Source: Desulfurispora thermophila DSM 16022 (GTDB lineage: Bacteria > Bacillota > Desulfotomaculia > Desulfotomaculales > Desulfurisporaceae). From it: DNA of 64,000 bases. The notes beneath the pieces were generated by a model. That model was not told the origin of the DNA and made no database searches. It was given only the letters and a program-made list of their open reading frames with translations. The position numbers and the translations under genes were made by a program. The stretch is from contig NZ_AQWN01000006.1 of assembly GCF_000376385.1 (NCBI RefSeq), positions 62,001 through 126,000 of the forward strand, written 5' to 3'. How positions within the stretch are numbered: the first letter of the stretch is position 1; each line of letters opens with the position of its first letter. Positions 5,182 to 21,317 of this stretch are shown piece by piece.

Positions 5182-6222
5182 ATGCGCTACCGCCTGCCGG
5201 CACTGCTCATGGTGTTACTCAGCACCGGCCTGGCCGTGCTCTCCTACTACCTGTTCTGGTGGGGAAAGGACAAGGAATTTACCGGTTATTCCCTGCGTGT
5301 GGCCGTACCGCCATTCAGTATTACCAATCTGCCCCATTTTTTGATCACCTCGCTGGGACACGACCGGCAGGAGAACATGAAAATCAATCAGATAATCTGT
5401 CAGTCAACTGCAGCAGCCTGGGAAAAAGTGCAAAAAAAAGAGGCCGATGTAGCCCTGGTGAACAGCCTGGAATTGTTCTCTACATTCGGTTCTTACCTTA
5501 TTGAACAAGAAGCAGACCAACCGGTTTTCATCGCCGCCGTAGCCGGCAACCCGGCCATCTACCTGGTGGGTACGGAAAGCGTGCCGCAATTTGCCTGGAC
5601 AGGCTTAAAAGACCACTCCATTCTAACCGGTCCGGAAACCGAACAAGACGGCATTCTACTCAAATATATATTAAAACAAAGTAACCTGCTGCCATTTGTT
5701 AATGTACTATTGTATGAAAACATTCCTGTCCAGCTGCGGCAAGCCATAATAGAAGCACGCTTTGCCCACTACGCTGTTTTGCCCGCCCAGCAATTATATG
5801 AACAACCGGAACCCAAAATTTACCCGCTGGCCCAACTGGGGAGTTTCACGGGCCGGTTTCCCGCCGTGGCCTATGTAACCAGCCGCCATTTATTACAAGA
5901 GAAAACGGGGGCCCTCCAGGCACTGGTCAACGCCCTGTACCGCACCCAGCAATGGCTGACGCAAAACGGCCCGGAACTAATCCGGTCCAGCCTGAACCAG
6001 AAAGCAGACCGGCAACGGCCGGAAATAAGCCAGAGACTATTGCAGGAAGCCCTGACCAGCGCCTGGTGGTATACCAGCCCGCTGGCCGGCACAAGCGAAT
6101 GGAATAAATTGCAGGAAATTTTGCAGGCCTATAATGAAAAGCTAATCGTTACTGAAAAAATGGTTTTCCCCGACCTGGCCCAAAACGCCATACAGCAGGC
6201 CCGGTTAGCACCGCAGAAATGA
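5182..6222 (+). CDS. Membrane-anchored NMT1/THI5-like substrate-binding protein (orphan)
   Basis: A 346-residue protein with an N-terminal hydrophobic segment (about residues 5-28, through the SYYLFWW stretch). The rest resembles the periplasmic-binding fold of the NMT1/THI5/SsuA group: INQIICQSTAAAWEKVQKKEADVALVNSLE, AAVAGNPAIYLVGTES, and a long helical C-terminus (ALQALVNALYRTQQWL). The hydrophobic segment has no lipobox cysteine, so it is probably an uncleaved anchor. The in-frame ATG at 5182 is preferred over TTG 5161 because GGGAGGTG at 5165-5172 sits at the right distance. No permease or ATPase gene flanks it, so its ligand and partner are unknown. It is divergent from valS and convergent with the downstream MCP gene. 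Confidence 0.7.
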   Translation: MRYRLPALLMVLLSTGLAVLSYYLFWWGKDKEFTGYSLRVAVPPFSITNLPHFLITSLGHDRQENMKINQIICQSTAAAWEKVQKKEADVALVNSLELFSTFGSYLIEQEADQPVFIAAVAGNPAIYLVGTESVPQFAWTGLKDHSILTGPETEQDGILLKYILKQSNLLPFVNVLLYENIPVQLRQAIIEARFAHYAVLPAQQLYEQPEPKIYPLAQLGSFTGRFPAVAYVTSRHLLQEKTGALQALVNALYRTQQWLTQNGPELIRSSLNQKADRQRPEISQRLLQEALTSAWWYTSPLAGTSEWNKLQEILQAYNEKLIVTEKMVFPDLAQNAIQQARLAPQK

Positions 6223-6238
6223 TATATAGTAAAATTAA

Positions 6239-8167
6239 TTAGAGTTTAAACCCGGCCACGGAGGACTGCAGGCGGGCGGCAATCTCGGCCAGCTGCTGGG
6301 TAGCGCCGGCCACCTGCTGAATGGTGGAGGTCACCTGTTCATTGCTGGCCGCCAGCTGCTGCATCCCTTCACTGGTCTGCCTAGCCCCACTGATGATTTC
6401 CTCTAACATTGCGATGTTCTTGCCGATGGCGTTAATGATATTCTGCAGGGCAACGCCGGCCTGAGAGGCCAGCTCCACACCTTCCCGCACTTCGCTGGAA
6501 CCCTGTTCCATGGTCCGCACTGCTGTTTCCACACCAGCCTGAATCTGTTGAATAAGCTGATCGATTTCCCGTGCTGCACTGGCCGACTGCTCGGCCAGTT
6601 TGCGCACTTCCTCCGCCACCACGGCAAAACCACGCCCCTGCTCGCCGGCCCGCGCTGCCTCGATGGCCGCATTCAAGGCCAACAGATTGGTCTGGTCAGC
6701 AATGCCCGTAATGATATTGGTGATATTACCAATTCGACCGGAAAGTTCTCCCAGGTTTTGTATAGACTGGCTCATCCGGGCGGAGGACTGAGCGATGGAG
6801 TTGATCTTGTCTATGGTTTTTTGCAGTGTCTCTCCGCCACTTTCCGCCAGGGCCACCACCTTTTGGGACTCCCCGGCGGTATGGGTAGCATTCTCCAGAC
6901 TTTTTTCGGCCATGGCCGCCACCTCGCTGCTGGTACCGGCCACCTCCTGCACCGTAGCGCTGACCTGCTGGGCGGAAGCCGCCAGTTCTTCACTGTTGGC
7001 CGCCAGAGTCTGAGCATCATCGGCCAGGCCGGCCAGCACCGGCTTCAGTCTGGCCTGCAATTGATCAATGGCCTGAACCAACCGGCCAATCTCATCCCGC
7101 CGGCTCAGGAACTGCTCGGGCACGGGACGCGTAAAGTCACCTCCGGCAATCAGCCCCAGGTGATCCACGGCCAGAGTGATCGGCCTGGCAATACTCCGGG
7201 CAATAGCAAAAGTGAACACCAGGGCCAGCAAAATGATGAGCAGGGAAACCAGCAGCAGGGACTGTTTCAGACCGCTAACCCGCTCCAGCACCTCTGCTTT
7301 AGGAACGTTAACGCCCAGTGACCAGCCTGTACTTTTAATGGGCACATAGGCCAATATCTTTTCCTGACCCTGGTAGGTGTACTGGCCCAAACCGGTTTCT
7401 CCTTTGGCCATTTTGCTTACTATCTCCGCCAGGGCGGTCAGAGACTGATCGGAGCGAGCTATTTCAATAAAATTTTTCTGCTCCAGAACCAACTTTTCAT
7501 CTTTATGAGCAATCGTCTTGCCCGTGCTGTCCACGGCAAAGCCATAACCGGTGCGGCCATATGTAATGCTCTTTACAAGCTCGCTGAACTTGGCCCCGTC
7601 TACCACACCAATCAGCACACCGCTGATCTCATTGCTGGCATAATGGCGGATGGGCACCGCATAAACAAAAACCACCGAGTTGTCCAGTTTGCTGACAATT
7701 GTACTGGTGATAGCAGTTTTGCCGGCTAGGGCCGCCTGGAAATAATCCCGGCCTGCCGCACTGGCTGATTTACCACTGGCAAAAAAAGCGTTGCCTGTCC
7801 GGTCGGCTATGCCCATATCCTTGAAACCCAGACTCTCCGCCCTTTGCAACTCCTCGCGCAGAACCTGCAGTTGCTCCTCCCGGGTGGCTGCGCGGTCCCC
7901 GGCCTTACCGCGGATCACGTTTCTTTCCGCCACAGCCTGCACCACATACAGGCGGGCCTGGATGCGGCTGTCCACAGTTTCCGCTGCCTGTTTGGCCAGT
8001 TGCTGCAAGGCCTCATCGGCGGCGTTCTCCAGCACACTGCCGGCCTGCCGTTCGCTGACCAGAAACAGGGACAGGCAGCCCAGCAGGACAATCGAACCAA
8101 ACAGTGCTACCATGCGCACCAGCAGGCTGGCCCGGTAATCCCACTTACTGTTTTTTTTCCCCTTCAT
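6239..8167 (-). CDS. Methyl-accepting chemotaxis protein with a dCache-type sensor domain
   Basis: Transmembrane chemoreceptor of 642 residues. It has a TM1 at about 15-37, an extracellular sensor of about 250 residues with Cache-type features ([38 protein letters not shown]), a TM2 at about 303-325, a HAMP domain beginning at [15 protein letters not shown], and a cytoplasmic signalling hairpin. The hairpin tip [20 protein letters not shown] lies around residues 485-510. It would modulate a CheA/CheW complex in response to an extracellular small molecule; the ligand cannot be read from sequence. It lies outside the che operon, separated from it by the GGDEF/HD-GYP gene, on the same strand. 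It is a conventional receptor, unlike the two MCP-like proteins in the operon. Confidence 0.93.
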
Positions 8168-10410: not shown

Positions 10411-10773
10411 TTAGCGCAGCAGCTTTTTTAGCACCATTTCCAATTGATCCGGGGTAAAGGGCTTGGTGATCCAGGCGGTGGCCCCGGCCTTGCGGGCCTC
10501 TTCTTTTTTCGCCTGCTGCGACTCGGTGGTCAGCATGATAATGGGTGTAAAACGGCAGGCCGAGTTTGCCCGAACCTGCCGGATAAAAGTTATACCGTCC
10601 AGACCGGGCATGTTAAGGTCGGTGATAACCAGATCCGGCTTTTTGGTGCTCAATTGCTTCAGCGCCTCGTCCGCCCGCTGGAAGGTATACAGCTCGTAGC
10701 CGCGACGCTCCAGGGCCAGCCTGATGCTGGCCAGCACGGTGGGAGAGTCGTCCACCGCCAGAATCTTATACAT
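10411..10773 (-). CDS. cheY: CheY-like single-domain response regulator (last gene of the che operon)
   Basis: A 120-residue receiver domain with no output domain. The acidic pair is in KILAVDDSP, the phospho-acceptor aspartate in VITDLNMPGLDG, the switch threonine in MLTTES and the lysine in WITKPF. All phosphorylation residues are present. It would be phosphorylated by the CheA of the same operon. Its ATG lies inside the end of the upstream STAS gene (8-bp overlap), suggesting translational coupling. It ends 281 bases before the GGDEF/HD-GYP start, across the riboswitch region. Its partner (flagellar motor or another target) is not evident. Confidence 0.93.
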   Translation of the reverse strand: MYKILAVDDSPTVLASIRLALERRGYELYTFQRADEALKQLSTKKPDLVITDLNMPGLDGITFIRQVRANSACRFTPIIMLTTESQQAKKEEARKAGATAWITKPFTPDQLEMVLKKLLR

Positions 10774-11014
10774 CCGGACGCACCTCCACCGCCAGCAGAC
10801 CCCTGAAAATTTCCCCCGGCCCCGCTGGGGTTAGCTCCACTTCCACCTGGGGGAATTCTTTGCGCAAAGCCACAACCAGTTGCAAACCGGCGGCATCCAG
10901 GCCGGGAGCGGTAAACACCACCTGCCTGGTCTCGCCGTTCACCTGCGCGAGGAGCCTTCGCCTTATTTCTTCAACATGAGGCAGCAAAAGCGGTAAATCA
11001 ATTTCCACCCGCAT
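10766..11014 (-). CDS. Small STAS-like protein in the chemosensory operon
   Basis: An 82-residue protein starting MRVEIDLPLL. The stretch VVFTAPGLDAAGLQLVVALRKEFPQVEVELTPAG matches the STAS (anti-sigma antagonist-like) fold around its central helix. The usual phosphorylated Ser/Thr of the D-S/T-AG motif is Ala here (LDAAGLQ), so switching by phosphorylation at that position looks impossible. ATG 11014 lies inside the end of cheA (17-bp overlap), behind an A/G-rich ribosome-binding site, and the gene overlaps the next cheY by 8 bp. STAS proteins occur in some chemosensory clusters; its partner is unknown. The STAS assignment rests on pattern resemblance only. Confidence 0.65.
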   Translation of the reverse strand: MRVEIDLPLLLPHVEEIRRRLLAQVNGETRQVVFTAPGLDAAGLQLVVALRKEFPQVEVELTPAGPGEIFRGLLAVEVRPDV

Positions 11015-13457
11015 CGAGAATTCCCCCCTTACCCTGGTCATTCATAAAGAGGCGCACCATCTCGTTGGGGTCCAGCACCAGCAACACCCGCCCGTCCCCC
11101 AGCACCGCAGCACCCATGAAGACGGACAGCCTCTTCAATTCCCCGGTCAGAGGCTTCACGATAACCACTTCTTTGCCCAGCACGGCGTCCACAGGTAAAG
11201 CGGCCTTCTGCCGCAGTACCACCAGAATTGTCTCATCCCGACAGGAAGCAGTTGTTTCCAAATATAAGCGGCTTTCCAGCAGCGGGATGATCTCCCCCCG
11301 CAGCATTGCCACGGGCCGACCGCGCACGGTCCTGATGTCGTTTTCCTCCACCCGGATGGTTTCCCCGACCGCAGCCAGGGGGATACCGTAAACCCCGCCG
11401 CCAATCCGCACCATCAGAACTTCGCTGGTGGCCAAGGTAAAGGGCAGGCTGATGATAAAATTGCTCCCCCGCCCCGGGGTTGACTCCAGCTGGATCGTAC
11501 CCCCCAGGTGGCTGATCGTTTTTTCAACCACATCCATGCCCACGCCACGCCCGGAAAGATCAGAAATTCCCTCCTTGCTGCTGAGCCCGGGCAGGAAGAC
11601 CAGTTTCAACTTCTCCCGCGCGCTCATTGCTTCCACTTGTTCGCGGGAAAGTATGCCGCCGGAGACGGCTTTTTCCGCCAAGGTTTCCACGTCAATACCA
11701 CGACCGTCGTCCGTTACCTGGATTATTATTCTTTCCCCCTGTCGACAGGCGGCAAGTTGGATAATACCCACAGGGTTTTTACCGGCTTTCAGCCGCTCTT
11801 CCGGTTCCTCCAGGCCGTGATCCAGGGCGTTGCGCACCAGATGCAACAGGGGTTCGTAAATTTCTTCGATGATGTTCCTGTCCAGGCGCGTATCTCCCCC
11901 GGAGGTGACCAACTCCACCTTTTTTTCGAGCATTCTGGCCTGGTCCCGAACGAAGCGGGGAAAACGTCCAAATACCTCCTGAACAGGCAGAAGCCATATG
12001 TCCATTACCCGGTCGTGGATTTCCCTGGCAATACGATCCAGATAAAGGAAGCGTTCCTTCAATTCCCTGGCCTGCCCATCCAGCCCCGCGGCCTCCAGCT
12101 TTTTGACCAGATAGGGCAGACTGTTCTTGGCGATGATCAGTTCCCCAGCCAGGCTCATCAGGGCGTCAGCCGTCTCCCGCCGCACCTTGAACGCGACCTG
12201 CCGGCCTTCCCCGGCAACACTGTTCCACCGCTGCTCCCCGGGAACCTTGCGCGACCGGCTGGAGAAGCTGGCCTTGCCGGCGCGCTCCGGGCCGGAACTG
12301 GGGAGCATCGCAACCGGGAAGCGCACCGGGCCCGCCCCTGTTTCTGTCTCCAGAGCAGCCAGCAAGGAGCGCGCCACCTTGATCAGCCGCTCCCTTTCCT
12401 CTTCCGGCACATCCGCAGGCTCCTGCTCCAGAGCTAGGCCGGCGCGCCCGGCAATCTGCTCCATAATTCGCCGGACCACCGGCAAAAACCCCGGTAACAC
12501 CTCCTTTTCAGCCATCAGCAGGGCCTTTTCCTGCTGCCGCAAAACTTGGAGAACACGCAGGAGCTCCTGACCGGAAAGAGGCGGCGCCTGTCCCGCTACG
12601 GACAGTACGTCGGAGGACTGCTGGATTTCTGCAAATGTTACTTCATTCAGCTCTTTCTCCAGCTCTTCCTCGTCCACCGGCCGCACAACCACCCTGTTTT
12701 CATCACTGTTTACAAAAACAAAGGTCTCTTCCACCGCCTCCCGGCCTTCGCCGGTAGCCAGGTAAAGAGTGAACACCAGGTGGTAGTCTTCGGGGTCAAG
12801 GCCGGACAAAGGCGGTACCCGGCTGTAATCCGCCATAAGCCCAGCTATGGTCCCCAGACCGGCCAGATCCTCCAGCAAGTAGCCCAAATTATGCCCCTGC
12901 CGGAAAAAATTGCGGCCAAAATCCAGCGTCAGGAAAAAGACATTTTTGCCCACGCGCAGTTCGTCACACAGAAGGCGCTTGACCTCTTCCGGCACCTGAG
13001 CCTCAGCCACTTCCAGAACAGCCGCCAAAGGCGCCGCCCCTCTTTCCGGCAGGCCAGGCTCCTTTTCCGAAGGACAGGCTGCCAGCAGTTCACTCCGGCC
13101 GTAGGATGCAATTTCCTCCAGCAACTCCTCCGGGGGCGGAAGATCTTGCCCACCGGCCAGGTCGGTCACCATGGCCTTGACATAGTCGAAACCCACCAGC
13201 AGCAAGTCCACCAGGCCGGGACCGGCTTCTATTTCTCCGCTCCGCAAGCCGTCCAGAAGGTCTTCCAGACGGTGGGTCATCTCACTTATCCCCCTGATCC
13301 CGGCGATACCGGCGGAACCTTTAAGAGTGTGCACCACTCGAAAAAGCTCATCCAGAAGTTCCGGCGACATTTCCTTTTCCAGTTCCAGGACCAGCGGTTC
13401 GATTTGGGCCAGAAGTTCCCCGGCCTCTTCCAAAAAAATTTCTTTCAGGTCAGACAT
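10998..13457 (-). CDS. cheA: Chemotaxis histidine kinase CheA
   Basis: An 819-residue kinase. The N-terminal Hpt domain carries the phosphorylated His43 in VVHTLKGSAG. A region at about 165-270 (VGKNVFFLTLDFGRNFF..., ending EETFVFVN) resembles a P2-like alpha/beta domain. The dimerization domain begins FKVRRETADALMSLAGELI. The kinase boxes are HLVRNALDHGLEEPEE (N), DDGRGID (G1), PGLSSKE (F) and SGRGVGMDVV (G2), and a CheW-like domain is C-terminal (SEVLMVRIGGGVYGIPLAAV). All catalytic boxes look intact. It lies between a cheY (6 bp upstream) and the STAS gene (overlapping). It should signal to the two CheYs and CheB of the operon. Confidence 0.96.
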   Translation of the reverse strand: MSDLKEIFLEEAGELLAQIEPLVLELEKEMSPELLDELFRVVHTLKGSAGIAGIRGISEMTHRLEDLLDGLRSGEIEAGPGLVDLLLVGFDYVKAMVTDLAGGQDLPPPEELLEEIASYGRSELLAACPSEKEPGLPERGAAPLAAVLEVAEAQVPEEVKRLLCDELRVGKNVFFLTLDFGRNFFRQGHNLGYLLEDLAGLGTIAGLMADYSRVPPLSGLDPEDYHLVFTLYLATGEGREAVEETFVFVNSDENRVVVRPVDEEELEKELNEVTFAEIQQSSDVLSVAGQAPPLSGQELLRVLQVLRQQEKALLMAEKEVLPGFLPVVRRIMEQIAGRAGLALEQEPADVPEEERERLIKVARSLLAALETETGAGPVRFPVAMLPSSGPERAGKASFSSRSRKVPGEQRWNSVAGEGRQVAFKVRRETADALMSLAGELIIAKNSLPYLVKKLEAAGLDGQARELKERFLYLDRIAREIHDRVMDIWLLPVQEVFGRFPRFVRDQARMLEKKVELVTSGGDTRLDRNIIEEIYEPLLHLVRNALDHGLEEPEERLKAGKNPVGIIQLAACRQGERIIIQVTDDGRGIDVETLAEKAVSGGILSREQVEAMSAREKLKLVFLPGLSSKEGISDLSGRGVGMDVVEKTISHLGGTIQLESTPGRGSNFIISLPFTLATSEVLMVRIGGGVYGIPLAAVGETIRVEENDIRTVRGRPVAMLRGEIIPLLESRLYLETTASCRDETILVVLRQKAALPVDAVLGKEVVIVKPLTGELKRLSVFMGAAVLGDGRVLLVLDPNEMVRLFMNDQGKGGILDAGGN

Positions 13458-13463
13458 GCCGGT

Positions 13464-13841
13464 TCACCCCAATATCTCGACGTATGCCAGTAGATCCGCA
13501 GGCTCCACCGGCTTCACCAGGTACATGTTGCACCCGGCTTTGAAACCGCGGTCCATGTCCCCCACCCCGGCCTCAGTGGTAATCATCAGAACCGGCACCG
13601 GCTCCAGGTCCCCGGCCCGTCGAATCTCCTTTATAAAACTGTAACCGTCCATCTTGGGCATGTTCACATCCACCAGCAATATGTCAAATTTACCGGCATA
13701 AATCTTTTCCAGCCCCTCGTAACCGTTGGCCGCCTCTTCCACCTGGTGCCCAACGCCTTCCAGCACTTCGCGGTAATACTGCCGCGCAGTAAACGAATCA
13801 TCTATTATCAGAATCCTGGACACAGCTTTCACCATCTCCAT
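13464..13841 (-). CDS. CheY-like single-domain response regulator
   Basis: A 125-residue receiver. Acidic residues are in ILIIDDSFTARQYY, the phospho-acceptor in ILLVDVNMPKMDG, the switch threonine in MITTEAG, and the lysine in YLVKPVE. It lies between cheB (16 bp upstream) and cheA (6 bp downstream). This is the second stand-alone receiver of the operon. Two CheYs with one kinase often mean an output CheY plus a phosphate sink; which is which cannot be told here. Confidence 0.92.
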   Translation of the reverse strand: MEMVKAVSRILIIDDSFTARQYYREVLEGVGHQVEEAANGYEGLEKIYAGKFDILLVDVNMPKMDGYSFIKEIRRAGDLEPVPVLMITTEAGVGDMDRGFKAGCNMYLVKPVEPADLLAYVEILG

Positions 13842-13857: not shown

Positions 13858-14949
13858 TCATTGTACAGCCTTGATCAGCGCTTCGGCAATAGCGTAGTGG
13901 GGTAAAACCAATTTGGCACCACCCCTTTTTACCGCTTCGCCCGGCATCCCCCAGACCACCGCCGTCTCTTCGGCCTCGGCTATGGTCATACCACCGGCCC
14001 GCCTTATATCCACCATGGCGTCTGCCCCGTCGTCACCCATGCCGGTCAGCAGCACCGCCACCAGGTTCCCGGCGTCCAAGCACTCCAGGGCAGAGCGGAA
14101 AGCCACATCTACCGAAGGTCTGAAAAGGGCATCCATGGGCCGGTGGGAGTGCCGTAGCCGGCAAACCTTCTCGCCAGGCCGGCGGTCGACCCTCAGGTGC
14201 ACTCCCCCCCGGGCCACCACCGCCAGCCCCGGCACGAGAGGCATACCCTCGACTGACTCTTTAACCTCTAGCCGGCATTCCCGGTTCAGCCGTTCAGCAA
14301 AAGGCCGGGTGAAGCTTTCAGGCATATGCTGCACCACCACCACGGGAGCGCCGAAGTTCGCCGGCAAAAGGGGCAGTATTTCCATCAAAGTCTTCGGGCC
14401 TCCGGTGGAAACACCGATTAACACCAGTTTTTCGCTTTCACCAGGCACAGTCCTTGTCTTGCCTGGCCTGGCGGGCGGGGCACCGGCCGTGGCAGAATCG
14501 GCCGGACCTGAACCAGGTCTGCGCTTAAATTTCATGGCCCCGACCCGCACCCGGCGGGCGGCCTTGATCTTGTCACGGATCTCCCGGGCCGCGTTTTTTA
14601 TGTTCAAGGACACGGTACCATCCGGCTTGGGAACATAATCCACCGCCCCCAGTTCCAGCGCCTCAAAGGTGGTCAGTGCCCCTTTTTGGGTGAGAGAGGA
14701 CACCACCAGAACCGGGCAGGGACGCTGGGCCATAATGTATTGGATGGCCGTAAGGCCATCCATGTGCGGCATATTGATGTCCATGGTAATCACATCGGGT
14801 TCCAGGGACAGATTCATCTCAACAGCTTCCCTGCCATCACGCGCCGCCCCCACCACCTCCAGCTCCCGATCTTCCTCGATAATTTCCCGCAGGTACTTGC
14901 GCATCAGCGCAGAATCGTCAACGATCAGCACCCGCGTCTTCCTGTTCAT
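13858..14949 (-). CDS. cheB: Chemoreceptor glutamate methylesterase CheB
   Basis: A 363-residue protein with an N-terminal receiver (VLIVDDSALMRKYL; VITMDINMPHMDGLTA; VSSLTQKG) and a C-terminal methylesterase. The esterase triad is visible: Ser in LIGVSTGGPKT, His in VVVQHMPESF and Asp in LLTGMGDDGADAM. It removes methyl groups from receptors, opposing CheR. The linker (about 140-190) is Arg/Pro-rich and variable. The start overlaps the end of the triple-CheW gene by 32 bp, so the two are probably coupled. Confidence 0.96.
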   Translation of the reverse strand: MNRKTRVLIVDDSALMRKYLREIIEEDRELEVVGAARDGREAVEMNLSLEPDVITMDINMPHMDGLTAIQYIMAQRPCPVLVVSSLTQKGALTTFEALELGAVDYVPKPDGTVSLNIKNAAREIRDKIKAARRVRVGAMKFKRRPGSGPADSATAGAPPARPGKTRTVPGESEKLVLIGVSTGGPKTLMEILPLLPANFGAPVVVVQHMPESFTRPFAERLNRECRLEVKESVEGMPLVPGLAVVARGGVHLRVDRRPGEKVCRLRHSHRPMDALFRPSVDVAFRSALECLDAGNLVAVLLTGMGDDGADAMVDIRRAGGMTIAEAEETAVVWGMPGEAVKRGGAKLVLPHYAIAEALIKAVQ

Positions 14950-16438
14950 TCTCCTCTACTCCTCCTGTGAATTCCGCCGCCACCTGCGCCACCTCCATCT
15001 GCTCTGCGCCGGTCAAAACACTCTGCAGTTTCAAGAGCAGGATTGACCGCTGTGAGTCCGCCGACCTGACCACGCCCTGCAGGTAACCGGTATCCAGGTG
15101 AGCCCCCAGAACCGCCGGCACCGGAGCGATCTGGTCAGCGGCAATCTTGCGCACCTCCCGCACGGCATCCACGACGAGGCCGGTGGGAACTCCGTTCATG
15201 TCCACCACAACGATGCGGGACCGGTCGTCGTTTTCCCTGGCCGGAAGACTCAGCTTCAACCTCAGGTTGATCACAGGCAGAATGGTACCCCGGATATTGA
15301 TCACACCTTCCACGTAAGCCGGCGCTCTGGGCACCCTGACTATTTCCGGCGGGCGGATGATTTCCTTCACGCTTTGGATGTTTACAGCGTATTCTTCCTC
15401 CTGCAGGTGGAAGATGACAAACTGCTCCTCGCTGACGACTCTTCGCTCCGGGCCCGCCTCCGTCTCCTCATCGCCGGATCCGTCCAGGTTGATTTCTCCC
15501 TCGGACAAAATGCTGTGGGGATCCAGCAGGTAGATCAGCCGCTTTCCTTCGCCCAGCTTGCAGACACCGGTAAGGTTTTTGGTATCATCTCCTCTCAGCA
15601 ATTCCGGCAGTGGCTCGATCTCTTCCGCTGTAAAGCGCAGGACCTCGGTGATGGAGTCCACACCCAGGCCGACGACCATTTTTTTCTCATTAACACCGAG
15701 GTTCAGCACTAGCACCCTGGCCCGATCGTCGTAGGGCCTGTCGGGTAGATCGAAGAACCGCCTCAGGTTCAGCATGGGCACGGTGCGCCGGCGCAGCGAG
15801 AAAAGGCCGTCCATATAGTGGGGAAAGCCGGGGGAGCGGGAAATCCGGTCCGGTACCCGGACGATTTCCTGCACCGTCTCGATGGCAACGGCGTACTCCT
15901 CCTCAGCCAACCTGAATCCCACAAACTGCTTCAACTCCTCCTGGCCGGCGGCCTCATTTTGCTTTTCCAGTACCGCCGCTCCGGAGTAATGCGCGGAACC
16001 GGCCCCCTCCAACCGCGGAAACAGTACCTCAATATTGATCACCATCACCATGGTGCTGCCATCGTCCGATTTTATCACGCGGGAGATCAATTCCTCCCGC
16101 CCCCGGGCGGCGCACAGGGTATCCTCCGTGGCATTCTCCAGGTTGATTACTTCCGACATGCGGTCCACTATATAGCCTATGGTTTCCCCCCGGTATTCAA
16201 GCACCACCACCCTGGTAGCGTCGGTTTCCACCACATCCGGTATATTAAAGCGCTTACGCCCGTCTATTACCGGCAAAATATTGCCTCGCAGGTTGGCCAG
16301 GCCGGAGAAGTAGTGCGGCGTACCGGGCACCCGCACCATCTCGGGCAGACGAATGATTTCCCGCACATACTCCAGTTCAATACCAAACAGCTCTTTGCCC
16401 AGGTAAAAGGTGACCATCTGACCACCAGCATTTTCCAT
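14918..16438 (-). CDS. Triple-CheW protein: three CheW domains in one chain
   Basis: A 506-residue protein made of three CheW repeats and little else. Domain 1 is about 5-150 (MVTFYLGKELFGIELEYV; GLANLRGNILPVIDGRKRF). Domain 2 is about 168-315 (FVGFRLAEEEYAVAIETV; GLFSLRRRTVPMLNLRRFF). Domain 3 is about 338-485 (FVIFHLQEEEYAVNIQSV; GVINIRGTILPVINLRLKL). Each keeps the hydrophobic core and the LRG/LRR-x-P turn. A single CheW normally couples one CheA to receptors, so three in a chain could act as a built-in array linker. No ordinary single-domain CheW gene is visible in the window. It lies between the tandem MCP and cheB, and overlaps cheB. Confidence 0.93.
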   Translation of the reverse strand: MENAGGQMVTFYLGKELFGIELEYVREIIRLPEMVRVPGTPHYFSGLANLRGNILPVIDGRKRFNIPDVVETDATRVVVLEYRGETIGYIVDRMSEVINLENATEDTLCAARGREELISRVIKSDDGSTMVMVINIEVLFPRLEGAGSAHYSGAAVLEKQNEAAGQEELKQFVGFRLAEEEYAVAIETVQEIVRVPDRISRSPGFPHYMDGLFSLRRRTVPMLNLRRFFDLPDRPYDDRARVLVLNLGVNEKKMVVGLGVDSITEVLRFTAEEIEPLPELLRGDDTKNLTGVCKLGEGKRLIYLLDPHSILSEGEINLDGSGDEETEAGPERRVVSEEQFVIFHLQEEEYAVNIQSVKEIIRPPEIVRVPRAPAYVEGVINIRGTILPVINLRLKLSLPARENDDRSRIVVVDMNGVPTGLVVDAVREVRKIAADQIAPVPAVLGAHLDTGYLQGVVRSADSQRSILLLKLQSVLTGAEQMEVAQVAAEFTGGVEENEQEDAGADR

Positions 16439-16483: not shown

Positions 16484-18421
16484 TTACACTTGCTGCAGTT
16501 CGTCCGCCAGGGCCGCGATCTCCTCGATGGCCCGAGCCAATTCCTGCATCCCGGCCGCCTGCTGCTTGGCCGCTGCAGCCGCCTCCTCAGCTGCCGAACT
16601 GGCCTCCTGGGCCGCCGCAGCAATCTGGTCCACCGCCTTCCTGGCCTGTTCCACCGCCACGGATATCTGGTCGGCGTTTTCCAGGATTGCTTCGGCGCCC
16701 TTCAGCACCGTTTTCATGTCGCTCTCGATCTGTACCAGATCGTCGGTGGTCTTCTGAGCACGCTTTACCTCTTCGGCGGCGCTTTCGCCCACCCGCACCA
16801 CATCATCAATGACCACTTTCACCTGATCCTGGATAGCCTTGACCAAATCTTTGATCTGCTCCGCGTTTTTAGTGCTGTCCTGGGCCAGATTGCGGATGTC
16901 TGAGGCCACCACTGCAAAGCCCTTGCCGAATTCCCCGGCCCGGGCCGCCTCAATGGCCCCGCTCACCGCCAGCATGTTGGTCTGTATGCCCACATTGACA
17001 ATGGTGTCCACGATCTTGTCGATGCGCCGGGTGATAACCTCCAGTTCCTTGATTTTCTGCACATTTTGCTGGTTGGCGGCCAGCGCCTCTCCAATCCCCC
17101 GGATCAGCGCATCCACGGCCACCTTGTTCTGAGCCAGCATATCCGATAGATTTTTGGTTGTATCCAGGGACTTCCTGGCCGTGCCAGCCACATTCTTAAC
17201 CATGTTGTCTATATTGGCCGCCGCCTCCGCTGATTCATCCGCTGCCTTGGCCTGACGCTGGGCGCCGATGGAAATCTGGTTCAGAGCCTCCATGATCTGC
17301 TGAGAGGCCTGGTTGGCTTCCTCGATGGCGGCGGAAAGCTCTTCCGCGGCGGCGGCCAGTTCTTCCGAGGATTTGTTGATGTCGGTAGAGGCGCGCAGAT
17401 TGTCGGCCATTTCCGAAAGTTCTTCCGCCGCGGAGGTGATGTCTCCCATTACCTTGGCCTGATGTTCCACCGCGACCAGGGACTCCTCCGCCGCGCCAGC
17501 CTGTTCTTCCGCCGCCGCCGCCACATCCGAAATCCCCTTCTGGAACTCCAGGGCGGCTTTTTCTAGCTCCACCGAGAGTTTGTCAATATCCACCGTCAAA
17601 CTGATAACATCTTCCATTTCCCGGCCAATTCTTACCAGGCTTTCGTTGATCTCCTTACCCTTTCCAGCCTCTCCCCGGGCAGTGGTCGCCGCCTGGTTGA
17701 CCGCTCCAGCGATCATCTTGACCTCCCCCTGGATGGTGTCAACCAATTCCCGTATGTCGTTGGCCGCCTTTTCTGAAATCTCCGCCAGTGTGCGCACTTC
17801 ATCGGCCACCACCGCAAAACCTTTGCCGTGCTCACCGGCCCGGGCAGCCTCTATGGCAGCGTTGAGGGCCAGCAAATTGGTCTGATCAGCGATTTTCACC
17901 ACGGTGCTCACAATGTTGCCAATGCTCTCGGCCTGTTTTTCCAGCTGGGCCACCAGATCCGCGGATTCAGCATTGCGTTCTGCCGCAACATTGACGCCAT
18001 CCACCAGGCTGGCTATGTCCCGCATGACATGGTTAACCAGTTGCTGCACTGCCCGGCCCCTTTCCAGAGCCTCGGCAGCCCCCTTGGCGCTGGCTTTTAT
18101 GTTGCCCACGATCTGGTTCACGGCGGCAAGGGACTCCTGGGTGGCCCCACCCGCCTCCTGAGCCCCGGTGGATATCTGTTCCATGGCCGCCCGCAGTTCC
18201 TCTACCGCCGAGGTGGCCTCTTGCACGCTGGAAGACATCTGCTCGGTAGCCGCCGCCAGGCGCTCAGCAATCTGCTGCTGTTTGGCAAATGTTCTCGCCT
18301 GCTTCCTTTGTTGCTCCATCTTCTTCTGCAGTTCCTTGTCCTCCCTGATGGACTTGCTTCCCTCTTTCACCCCGGGTTGCAGACTGTCCTGGGGCAGTGG
18401 CGATAAGGTTTTTTGTGCCAT
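16484..18421 (-). CDS. Soluble MCP-like protein with two tandem signalling hairpins and no sensor domain
   Basis: A 645-residue, almost wholly helical, Ala/Glu-rich protein with no signal peptide, membrane segment or recognisable ligand domain. Two chemoreceptor tips occur in one chain. The first (around residues 175-215) reads [20 protein letters not shown] and [11 protein letters not shown]. The second (around 470-510) reads [20 protein letters not shown] and [11 protein letters not shown]. Coiled-coil heptads surround each tip. Ordinary MCPs have one hairpin. The second tip departs from the usual [11 protein letters not shown] core at VSG, so the two may contact CheA/CheW differently. It lies upstream of the triple-CheW gene. 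FrzCD is a known sensor-less cytoplasmic MCP but has one hairpin. Confidence 0.9.
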
Positions 18422-18568: not shown

Positions 18569-19657
18569 TTAAAAAAACTCGATATTGCCGGCCATCCCAC
18601 CGCTATCTTCATCGATACTGGCTCCCGGTTGGAGGGCGCGGCGATGGACAGCCCGTTCGCTTTCCATGGTGTACATCTCTTCCAGCTCTTGCAGGATATC
18701 AAACTTTTTAATTTCCTTCCCTGCTTCGCAACCGGCCAGCAGTTCCTCCACCCGCAACAAAATGTCCCGCACATGGGATATTTGCTGGGCCACCGCATCC
18801 TGAAATTGAAAGGCGGTAATACCCTCATCCAGGTAGCGATCCATAGTTTTCAGCTCCGCGGCAATTCTAGCCGCATCCGCCGCCGCATCTTCGTCCCACT
18901 GCCGGTGGAGGGCCAACAGTTCGCGAACTTCTTTTTGACCGTTCGTCAACTCGTCAGCAACTGCCTTGAGGTCGGCGGTACTATTTTCCATATCTGATAT
19001 TTTATCCCTAATATTCTGCAAGAGCAGGTGACCAAACTGCCTAACACTTTGTACTGCTTTCCCGGATTGGCCCGCCAAGTTCTGGATCTCTCCGGCTACC
19101 ACTGCAAAACCGCGCCCGGCCTCGCCAACCCTGGCCGCCTCAATGGCGGCGTTCAGTGCCACCAGGCGAATGCGGGCAGATATTTCCTCCAACTCGTTTA
19201 AAATACCGAAAAGTTTCTCAGCTTTTTGCTCTAGGTCGAATATCACCTGATGCATTTCTTTCGCCACGCCCATGCGATCCTGCAACAGAGCAAGAAGTTT
19301 TTCCATATTTTGATATGCATGGTAAAAAGTCTCTTCCTGCCTACTGCGGCCGTACTGTTGATCCTTGAGCAAAACTTCCAGAGAGGATAGACTCTGGCGC
19401 ACCCGGGCCATCACTTGCCCCACCGCGTCAGCAGACTTTAAAACACCTTCTTCCGCGGTTCGGACGGATTCTTCCAGGTTGGCTCGTAGCACAGGGAATA
19501 GTTTTAACAGCTGCTCGTACACCTTTCTTTCCCCGCTAGAGATGCAATCCTCTGACCCGCCCCTGGTGGCCAGCCAAAGATGAGCGGCAACTAAGCCACA
19601 CAATATTCCGGCCAAAAACAGCAAGGCATAAAACATTTTTCCATACCCCTGTTTCAC
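18569..19657 (-). CDS. Short membrane-anchored MCP-like protein with a C-terminal CheZ-like DxxxQ motif
   Basis: A 362-residue protein with one N-terminal membrane helix (about 9-29), no periplasmic sensor and no HAMP. A central signalling-hairpin-like stretch holds [19 protein letters not shown] and [11 protein letters not shown] (around 160-195). Further on, the helix [16 protein letters not shown] carries Asp287 and Gln291. The F-Q-D-x-x-x-Q pattern is the same as in the active-site helix of the CheY-P phosphatase CheZ. It overlaps cheR by 4 bp upstream and is separated from the tandem MCP by 147 bases. The name MCP is safe; a phosphatase role is only inferred. Confidence 0.82.
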
Positions 19658-20475
19658 TTTTGATATATAATGGCTTCTTTGAATCTGCGCAACTTGAAAA
19701 TTGGTGTTATCCTGCTCATGGATTCGGAATGGCCTAGAAAAATGAACCCGCCGGGCTCCAGAGAGCGGTAAAAACCCAGGGCCACCTCCCGTCTGGAATG
19801 ATCATCGAAATATATCAAAACGTTACGGCAAAAAACAGCATGGAACCCGCTCATCCGCTCCATGGCTTCCCTATCCATCAAATTCAGCCGGTACAGACAG
19901 ACGCGTTTTTTTACATCCGGCCTAACCCAGTAACCGTTTCCGTCGAAACGAAAATATTTTTGCAAATAGTCCACCGGTACATCCTTTACCGCCCTAGCAC
20001 CGTAATACGCCCTTTCGGCCGATTTGAGCGCTTCCGTATTGATATCGGTGCCGTGCACCTCAAAGTGCATTCCTGTATCACCAAGCATCTCCAGTAATAT
20101 AATGGCCAGCGTGTAGGGCTCCTCTCCGGTGGAGCAGCCGGCGGACCAGACTTTCAGCTTGCTGCCCCGGAGGTTCTGAGCCAAAAGCGGGATTACTTCC
20201 TCGGCAAAGCACTTCAACTGCATATACTCGCGGAAAAAATACGTCTCGTTGACGGTCAAAGAATTGACCAAAAATTCAAGTTCTCTTTTCGCGGAATGAA
20301 ACCGCAGGTGGTTGAAATAAAGGCTGAAACTTTTAAAGCCCAGTTCCTGCATACGTTTTTCCACGCGTTTGGTAACATAATAATTTTTGTCGGCCCCAAA
20401 TCTGATCCCGGTTTTCTGGTAAATAAATTCGGCGAGGCGGGTAAAATCGGCTGCATTCAGGATTGCACCACTCAT
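19654..20475 (-). CDS. cheR: Chemoreceptor glutamate methyltransferase CheR
   Basis: A 273-residue SAM-dependent methyltransferase acting on receptor glutamates. The N-terminal helical domain begins at [14 protein letters not shown]. The SAM-binding core shows [40 protein letters not shown] and [14 protein letters not shown], in the order of the CheR family. Full-length. It overlaps the HEAT gene upstream and the short MCP gene downstream by four bases each (ATGA), indicating one translationally coupled operon. The lack of a C-terminal tether partner is normal for Bacillota CheR. Confidence 0.96.
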
Positions 20476-21008
20476 AGGCTTTTCCTCACCAATTCAAGTA
20501 CGTAGCGGAGATAAGGGTAATCGCCAAATTTGGCAATTGTCCCGGCCACCCTGTCCAGCAGATCCACATCCTCAGGCCCACCCAGCACCCCAAGGCATTC
20601 CAGGGCCGCAGCCAGAACGTTCTGATTTTCTACTTCCCCACTTGAGATCAGCCGCTCTAAAAAGCGACGCACCAGCCCCACCGCCGCTTCGCTTCTGATC
20701 CCGGCAAGTATGTTGAAACAGAGTATTTTTAAATCCGGGTCGGAGTTGTGGAGCAATTGTTCCAGACGATCCATGTACATGACACCCAATTCCTGCAGCG
20801 CCTCCACCGCCAGGTTGCGCAGATGGGCTTCGGGAGAAGAAAGGAGTGAAATAAAATTCTCCACTACCTCGGGTGCGCCCAACCGGACGGCCTGCACAAA
20901 GGCCGCCTCTCTTACTGCCGGCTCCTGCGTCTTGACCAGCAACTCAAAGATTGTTTTTAGATCGCCATCAGCAGCATATCTGTTGATCCTCTCAAAGATA
21001 TCATCCAT
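20472..21008 (-). CDS. HEAT-repeat protein, first gene of the chemosensory operon
   Basis: About 178 residues of repeated alpha-helical hairpins with the HEAT/PBS-lyase spacing: EPAVREAAFVQAVRLGAPEVVENFISLL, SPEAHLRNLAVEALQELG, DPDLKILCFNILAGIRSEAAVGLV, and NVLAAALECLGVLGGPEDVDLL. No catalytic motif is seen. Such folds usually bind proteins. The start is taken as ATG 21008 because GGAGG lies upstream (spacing about 13, long); ATG 21032 has no visible ribosome-binding site. It overlaps cheR by four bases and heads the operon, so it probably serves the chemosensory complex as adaptor or regulator. Its partner is unknown. Confidence 0.75.
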   Translation of the reverse strand: MDDIFERINRYAADGDLKTIFELLVKTQEPAVREAAFVQAVRLGAPEVVENFISLLSSPEAHLRNLAVEALQELGVMYMDRLEQLLHNSDPDLKILCFNILAGIRSEAAVGLVRRFLERLISSGEVENQNVLAAALECLGVLGGPEDVDLLDRVAGTIAKFGDYPYLRYVLELVRKSL

Positions 21009-21317
21009 CTTATTGTTCTGCCCTCCTTCCATATAACTTCATATCAAACCCGCTGTTTAAACACTGGCATTAATCGAGTAGGAGGGGGCGGCTAGCCCCC
21101 AACCTCTCACACCACCCTTATCTATTAAACTCAAATTAGGTAACAGGAAAGCTAGCCTAAGCTATCCTTACATCAAAAAACTAATTAATAAATTATTAAC
21201 AAGAAACTTAACTTCGACGTAATGTTTTTTTATCCTACCATTTTTGTCAATTTACCCCCCCCCCGCATAAAATTTTCTTATAGATGTATAAAATTATCTT
21301 ATCAATCATCCCGGAAT
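21009..21317 (-). other. Upstream region of the chemosensory operon, with a C10 homopolymer and a GC-rich hairpin
   Basis: No gene is seen. On the plus strand a run of ten C residues lies at 21255-21264. On the minus strand this is G10, followed a few bases later by TAAATTGACA, a possible -35 without a clear -10. GGGGGCTAGCCGCCCCC (minus strand, around 21083-21100) can form a strong short hairpin in the leader. The rest is AT-rich. It must contain the operon promoter, but no convincing full match was found. Confidence 0.5.

Follow-up and report, generated by a model that had tools for sequence, protein, structure and literature searches.

A candidate CheZ-type CheY-P phosphatase built into a chemoreceptor-like signalling hairpin in Desulfurispora thermophila

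The chemotaxis operon and its MCP-hairpin protein

The window, that is, the whole stretch of 64,000 nucleotides of Desulfurispora thermophila DSM 16022 DNA analysed here, contains a chemotaxis operon on the minus strand. The gene under study (18569–19657, minus strand, 362 amino acids), which reads from a GTG start at 19657 down to 18569, overlaps the stop codon of cheR and sits between cheR and a gene for a protein with tandem MCP regions. The latter (16484–18421, minus) encodes a soluble protein of 645 amino acids with two tandem MCP signalling hairpins per chain (four MCPsignal stretches) and is kept in the same operon of relatives. The same strand encodes a 506-residue protein made of three fused CheW domains (14918–16438), also conserved in relatives, and, adjoining cheR, a HEAT-repeat protein (20472–21032) whose gene relatives retain together with cheR and cheB. 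The operon further encodes CheA (10998–13457, minus) and two CheY-type response regulators that are possible substrates of the protein studied here, one at 13464–13841 (minus; sequence features DVNMP, TTE and KP) and the other at 10411–10773 (minus; DLNMP and LTTE). A small STAS-like ORF (10766–11041, minus) lies between CheA and the second CheY, and a small ORF of similar appearance separates CheY from CheA in a cluster of a gammaproteobacterium (L211) that includes a homolog of our protein.

The 362-residue protein begins with a single predicted membrane anchor (residues about 8–31, 19565–19636, minus), read from a 22-residue stretch of the sequence, with no periplasmic domain. It is followed by a helix at residues about 48–89 (19391–19516, minus), delineated by hhalign against the stand-alone relatives described below and including a conserved T/A-E-E-x-V, and by an MCP signalling hairpin at residues 134–247 (18917–19258, minus) with its tip near E179. 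This hairpin is the sole Pfam domain above cut-off (PF00015, 70.7–70.8 bits, E 1.6e-19, cut-off 34.6). A second helix (residues about 265–311, 18725–18865, minus), defined by a 60-column alignment with CheZ, bears the putative active-site motif A282-x-x-F-Q-D287-x-x-x-Q291 (18785–18814, minus), recognised from family conservation and the published CheZ signature; the D287 codon lies at 18797–18799 and that of Q291 at 18785–18787. Family alignments delimit two further elements, a semi-conserved box of 10 residues (329–338, 18644–18673, minus) and the C-terminal tail N-I-E-F-F (residues 358–362, 18572–18586, minus), for which the family consensus is [DN][VI]E[LF]F. The original prediction had placed a DxxxQ pair, Asp287 and Gln291 preceded by FQ, in a helix after the signalling hairpin, and the translation, the Pfam boundaries 134–247 and the helix of the AlphaFold model all confirm this.

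As in other proteins with an MCP signalling domain (PF00015), the hairpin has a conserved tip, but the protein differs from them by the lack of a HAMP or ligand domain and by an RIR in place of the usual QTN before the tip. Neither Pfam nor NCBIfam detects a sensor or HAMP domain, NCBIfam returns just MCP matches far under cut-off, and Pfam gives no match to the CheC/CheX/FliY families (PF04509 and PF13690). Some cytosolic MCPs likewise have no sensor or HAMP domain. With neither domain found, the name "receptor" may be a misnomer for this protein. The AlphaFold model (mean pLDDT 77, pTM 0.42) is helical throughout, including the motif stretch. The significant matches of this model in Foldseek, for which a helical hairpin would not discriminate, and those of the sequence in the PDB are MCPs and not CheZ, and the model is neutral on a CheZ-like active site, speaking neither for nor against it.

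Conservation of the motif and likeness to CheZ

The spacing of the two residues is by itself weak evidence since a bare DxxxQ is frequent in the post-hairpin stretch of ordinary MCPs, where it occurs in 42 of 134 proteins from the fetched loci; the longer [FY]QDxxxQ occurs there in 1 of 134. A tblastn search with the full-length protein recovered four genes in three genomes of the same taxonomic order, with 25–27% identity, all of which encode QFQDxxxQ and a C-terminal N-x-E-x-F. Across 25 members of the family (19–27% identical to the window protein), the invariant positions are hairpin residues, Q284, D287, Q291 and the terminal F362. Conservation of DxxxQ in orthologues, named beforehand as one of two points on which the original prediction could fail, turned out to be very strong: Q291 is present in 98/98 non-redundant profile matches, D287 in 96/98, both exceptions being ordinary MCPs caught by the profile, and the terminal Phe in 91/98, counts which are partly circular because the motif is prominent in the search profile, the tblastn set and the N-side helix comparison given below being less so.

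Members of the family are spread over distant lineages. A scan of contigs with the full alignment returned mostly ordinary MCPs because the hairpin dominates it, and an alignment of the C-terminal part worked better. The C-terminal profile identified members in 18 genomes out of 398 from the window's phylum, and in Pseudomonadota it matched 198 of 398 genomes with an E-value of 0.001 or lower. Some of the latter matches may be CheZ itself, so that 198 is the most that can be credited to the hairpin type. The whole-protein scan also found members in Gammaproteobacteria and Betaproteobacteria. At the level of sequence, the family site is invariant across two large bacterial phyla. The view that the motif arose by chance or as a coiled-coil coincidence, unrelated to CheY, could draw on the abundance of bare DxxxQ in ordinary MCPs, but this conservation across orthologues already contradicts it, as do the CheZ profile match and the CheY adjacency presented below, and we regard it as extremely improbable.

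The signature of CheZ has been defined as AxxFQ-DxxxQ (PMC7750401), and it is present in full in the window protein. When the 26-sequence C-terminal alignment of the family was compared by hhalign with six CheZ sequences, a score of 33.4 was obtained across 60 columns, and the DxxxQ of the two sides fell in register (34.5 when the proteobacterial hairpin members were left out). By comparison, 300 column-shuffled CheZ alignments gave a mean of 11.2 and a maximum of 20.6, and reversed CheZ gave 15.1. Masking the ten motif columns lowered the score to 16.7 without a change of register, against a null with a mean of 10.3 and a maximum of 15.5, and against up to 17.5 for helices of ordinary MCPs, which matched another part of CheZ and were out of register. 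This indicates that the similarity to CheZ, although significant, comes largely from the motif and is weak, near noise, outside it. The expected alignment with CheZ beyond the motif was therefore borne out for its register over 60 columns and much less so for similarity outside the motif. On the N-side, the best match of the helix to helix 1 of CheZ falls at the expected TEQA segment, with scores of 10.9 (null maximum 13.7) and 15.4 (null maximum 13.1). As this match is just suggestive and the masked similarity is near noise, the family and CheZ may have converged on a short motif.

The Pfam CheZ model (PF04344) does not match the window protein. It is the top match of some family members, the best of which (L061, 21.7 bits, E 2e-4; L077, 19.8 bits) never reach the cut-off of 30.7. 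Conversely, the family profile, built without CheZ, yields CheZ-sized matches in some 20 of the 59 Pseudomonas genomes, all four of those inspected being real CheZ, and it finds real CheZ in 7 of 8 named gammaproteobacterial genomes, six recognised by motif and one (L314) by size only. The profile also picks up a genuine CheZ encoded beside CheY in Halomonas (L108), at the end of a cluster of the type that bears family members. What CheZ of E. coli and other Proteobacteria has in common with the family is the AxxFQ-DxxxQ on helix two of a helical hairpin, an acidic C-terminal peptide ending in Phe and a CheY partner alongside. The window protein differs from CheZ by its tail, where GNIEFF stands and the CheZ peptide DDLLxxLGF is absent (the family tail being acidic with a terminal Phe), by its membrane anchor, by the MCP signalling tip within the hairpin and by the lack of a significant Pfam match. 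Given the Pfam and C-terminal peptide results, we do not file the protein as a member of the CheZ family; we propose that it works like CheZ.

Stand-alone relatives, CheY neighbours and other candidate phosphatases

Related stand-alone proteins of about 160–230 amino acids, devoid of an MCP hairpin, share the Q-F-x-D-x-x-x-Q helix and the acidic tail with the family. Furthermore, the N-side helix of the hairpin type matches that of the stand-alone type with an hhalign score of 27.0 (null mean 6.2, maximum 10.8) in a comparison from which the motif is absent. By these alignments the module consists of two helices, at residues about 48–89 and 265–311 of the window protein. Since both flanking helices are common to stand-alone proteins without a hairpin, the MCP tip looks as if inserted into a CheZ-like helical hairpin, where it would occupy the place of the short loop of the stand-alone type. 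A hairpin-less protein fills the slot of the family gene in several clusters, namely in genome G352, in an F7-type cluster (L290) and in CheY-CheA clusters (L297 and L300–L303).

These relatives bear on whether the window protein could be an ordinary degenerate chemoreceptor, whose C-terminal helix and tail would serve methylation or the tethering of CheR/CheB. Such a reading accounts for the MCPsignal domain scoring above cut-off and for the N-x-E-x-F that the family tail NVELF shares with the NWETF pentapeptide. The distance of the C-side helix from the tip is also about that of the second methylation helix in Tsr. This reading does not explain why the hairpin-less relatives keep the helix and the tail, which neither methylation nor CheR tethering would require, and no sensor or HAMP domain was found. 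Moreover, the CheR pentapeptide requires an aromatic residue at position 2, a valine at this position in P. aeruginosa McpA preventing CheR binding (PMC7184735). Overall, we find this reading improbable.

The gene neighbourhood links the family to CheY. Of the 63 family loci for which flanks were available, 49 carry a response-regulator gene on the same strand at no more than 700 bp, in most cases for a single-domain CheY and just a few bases off. CheA is encoded within 6 kb in 43 of the 63. No response-regulator gene was found within 700 bp in 34 ordinary MCP loci, a control with flanks of about 1.5 kb around the domain in which some neighbours may be missed. The CheY proteins adjoining family genes carry D-x-N-M-P in 31 of 34 cases and T-x-E in 26 of 34, the residues that surround the active site of E. 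coli CheY (N59 and E89). CheY directly follows the family gene in relatives; in the window, the nearest cheY is about 5 kb from it, though in the same operon.

The original prediction had also argued from the lack of any other phosphatase in the operon. No CheC, CheX, FliY or CheZ gene was seen there, but a CheC (220 amino acids) and a FliY-like protein (438 amino acids) are encoded on another contig of the same genome, in which no match to CheX or CheZ reaches cut-off. The window protein is consequently not the sole candidate phosphatase of the cell, and the case does not depend on the argument from a missing operon phosphatase; the protein may serve the CheYs of its own operon. Some genomes elsewhere encode CheZ as well as a family member, and this one encodes CheC/FliY in addition to it. 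The presence of CheZ or CheC/FliY in many of the genomes would suit a FQDxxxQ helix that binds CheY or CheY-P without catalysis, as a sink or for localisation or coupling, the protein being a CheY-docking component of the array, and the synteny and tail evidence fits this equally. However, the most conserved residues are the Asp and the Gln that form the catalytic pair of CheZ, while the residue directly before the Asp varies (Q, E, Y or G), and pure binding would not demand exactly these two, so that we consider docking without catalysis unlikely.

Proposed mechanism and relation to McpA-like receptors

Taken together, the conservation, the CheZ register, the CheY adjacency, the stand-alone relatives and the exchange of slots favour a CheZ-type phosphatase, and we think it probable that the window protein is a membrane-anchored CheY-P phosphatase of this type built into an MCP hairpin. 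In its catalytic helical hairpin, the MCP signalling tip would replace a short loop, and the C-side helix would bring D287 and Q291 to the CheY-P active site where, by analogy with CheZ, the Gln would place the attacking water and the Asp would contact the CheY lysine. The acidic tail ending in FF or LF may act as a flexible tether that recruits CheY, in the manner of the C-terminal peptide of CheZ. The probable role of the MCP tip is to dock the enzyme close to CheA/CheW or to other receptors, in such a way that the signal would be ended at the source of CheY-P. Of the "receptor with a built-in CheY-P phosphatase" put forward in the original prediction, the phosphatase part is backed by the CheZ-type site, the CheY synteny, the stand-alone relatives and the acidic tail, while the receptor part is doubtful in view of the missing sensor and HAMP domains.

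A protein group already described may belong here. F7 clusters have an mcpA-like receptor beside cheB that is membrane-anchored and to which no heptad class can be assigned; it is dispensable for array formation, and its C-terminus is highly conserved with an unclear role (PMC7184735). Furthermore, cheZ is present in F6 and absent from early F7 clusters (PMC7184735). In clusters found via Aer2-type receptors ending in EWEEF, a family member stands at the McpA-like position (L285–L288 and L293), and in Vibrio metoecus (L320) the order is an Aer2-type receptor, cheR, a gap fitting cheD, cheB and a family member with ALQFTDIVSQ and the tail MDEGEVELF. McpA-like receptors (CttP/PA0180 and VCA1088 Mlp44) share with the family the place beside cheB, the membrane-anchored MCP hairpin and the conserved C-terminus, and differ in having been described as receptors of unknown role and not as CheZ-like (PMC7184735, PMC7534058). 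From position and published description, we infer that PA0180 and VCA1088 belong to the family (PMC7534058). A cluster (L205) considered by gene order as an orthologue of P. aeruginosa Che2 was dropped, the tail of its receptor differing from that of Aer2.

CheT of Sinorhizobium meliloti is reported to be a DxxxQ protein with a predicted CheZ-like fold that dephosphorylates one of two CheYs (PMC12654446, citing Agbekudzi 2024). It resembles the family by the motif and the predicted fold and differs in that no MCP hairpin is reported for it; CheT may belong with the stand-alone relatives. A search of the open-access literature found no description of an MCP with a CheZ-type site.

A broader reading, which we put forward tentatively as somewhat less probable than its negation, is that of a large unrecognised family, present in as many as half of the Pseudomonadota genomes examined and in some members of the window's phylum, in which a CheZ-type phosphatase lies inside a chemoreceptor hairpin. 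Arrays would then control both the making and the destruction of CheY-P, the McpA-like receptors would be the missing phosphatase of F7, and the activity would possibly be regulated by the tip. With a phosphatase regulated by the MCP tip, these pathways would end their signal under receptor control rather than constitutively. More generally, this work proposes a testable function for widespread sensor-less proteins annotated as chemoreceptors and bears on the role of McpA-like receptors in F7 systems without cheZ and on their conserved C-terminus (PMC7184735). Unassigned "receptors" may in many cases serve to switch their pathway off, and counts of MCP domains would overestimate the number of receptors.

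Some gene arrangements and architectures found during these scans deserve mention. In one operon (L051, G054:C51), two copies of a family gene (397–1536 and 5185–6315) flank a PAS-containing ORF. Three proteins of about 580–640 amino acids (L199, L201 and L239) match the module and have no MCP hairpin, the L239 ORF showing two separate matches that are possibly tandem phosphatase modules. Finally, the module is also found inside an ORF of 1235 amino acids (L242:6216-9920, G481) that adjoins a response-regulator gene.
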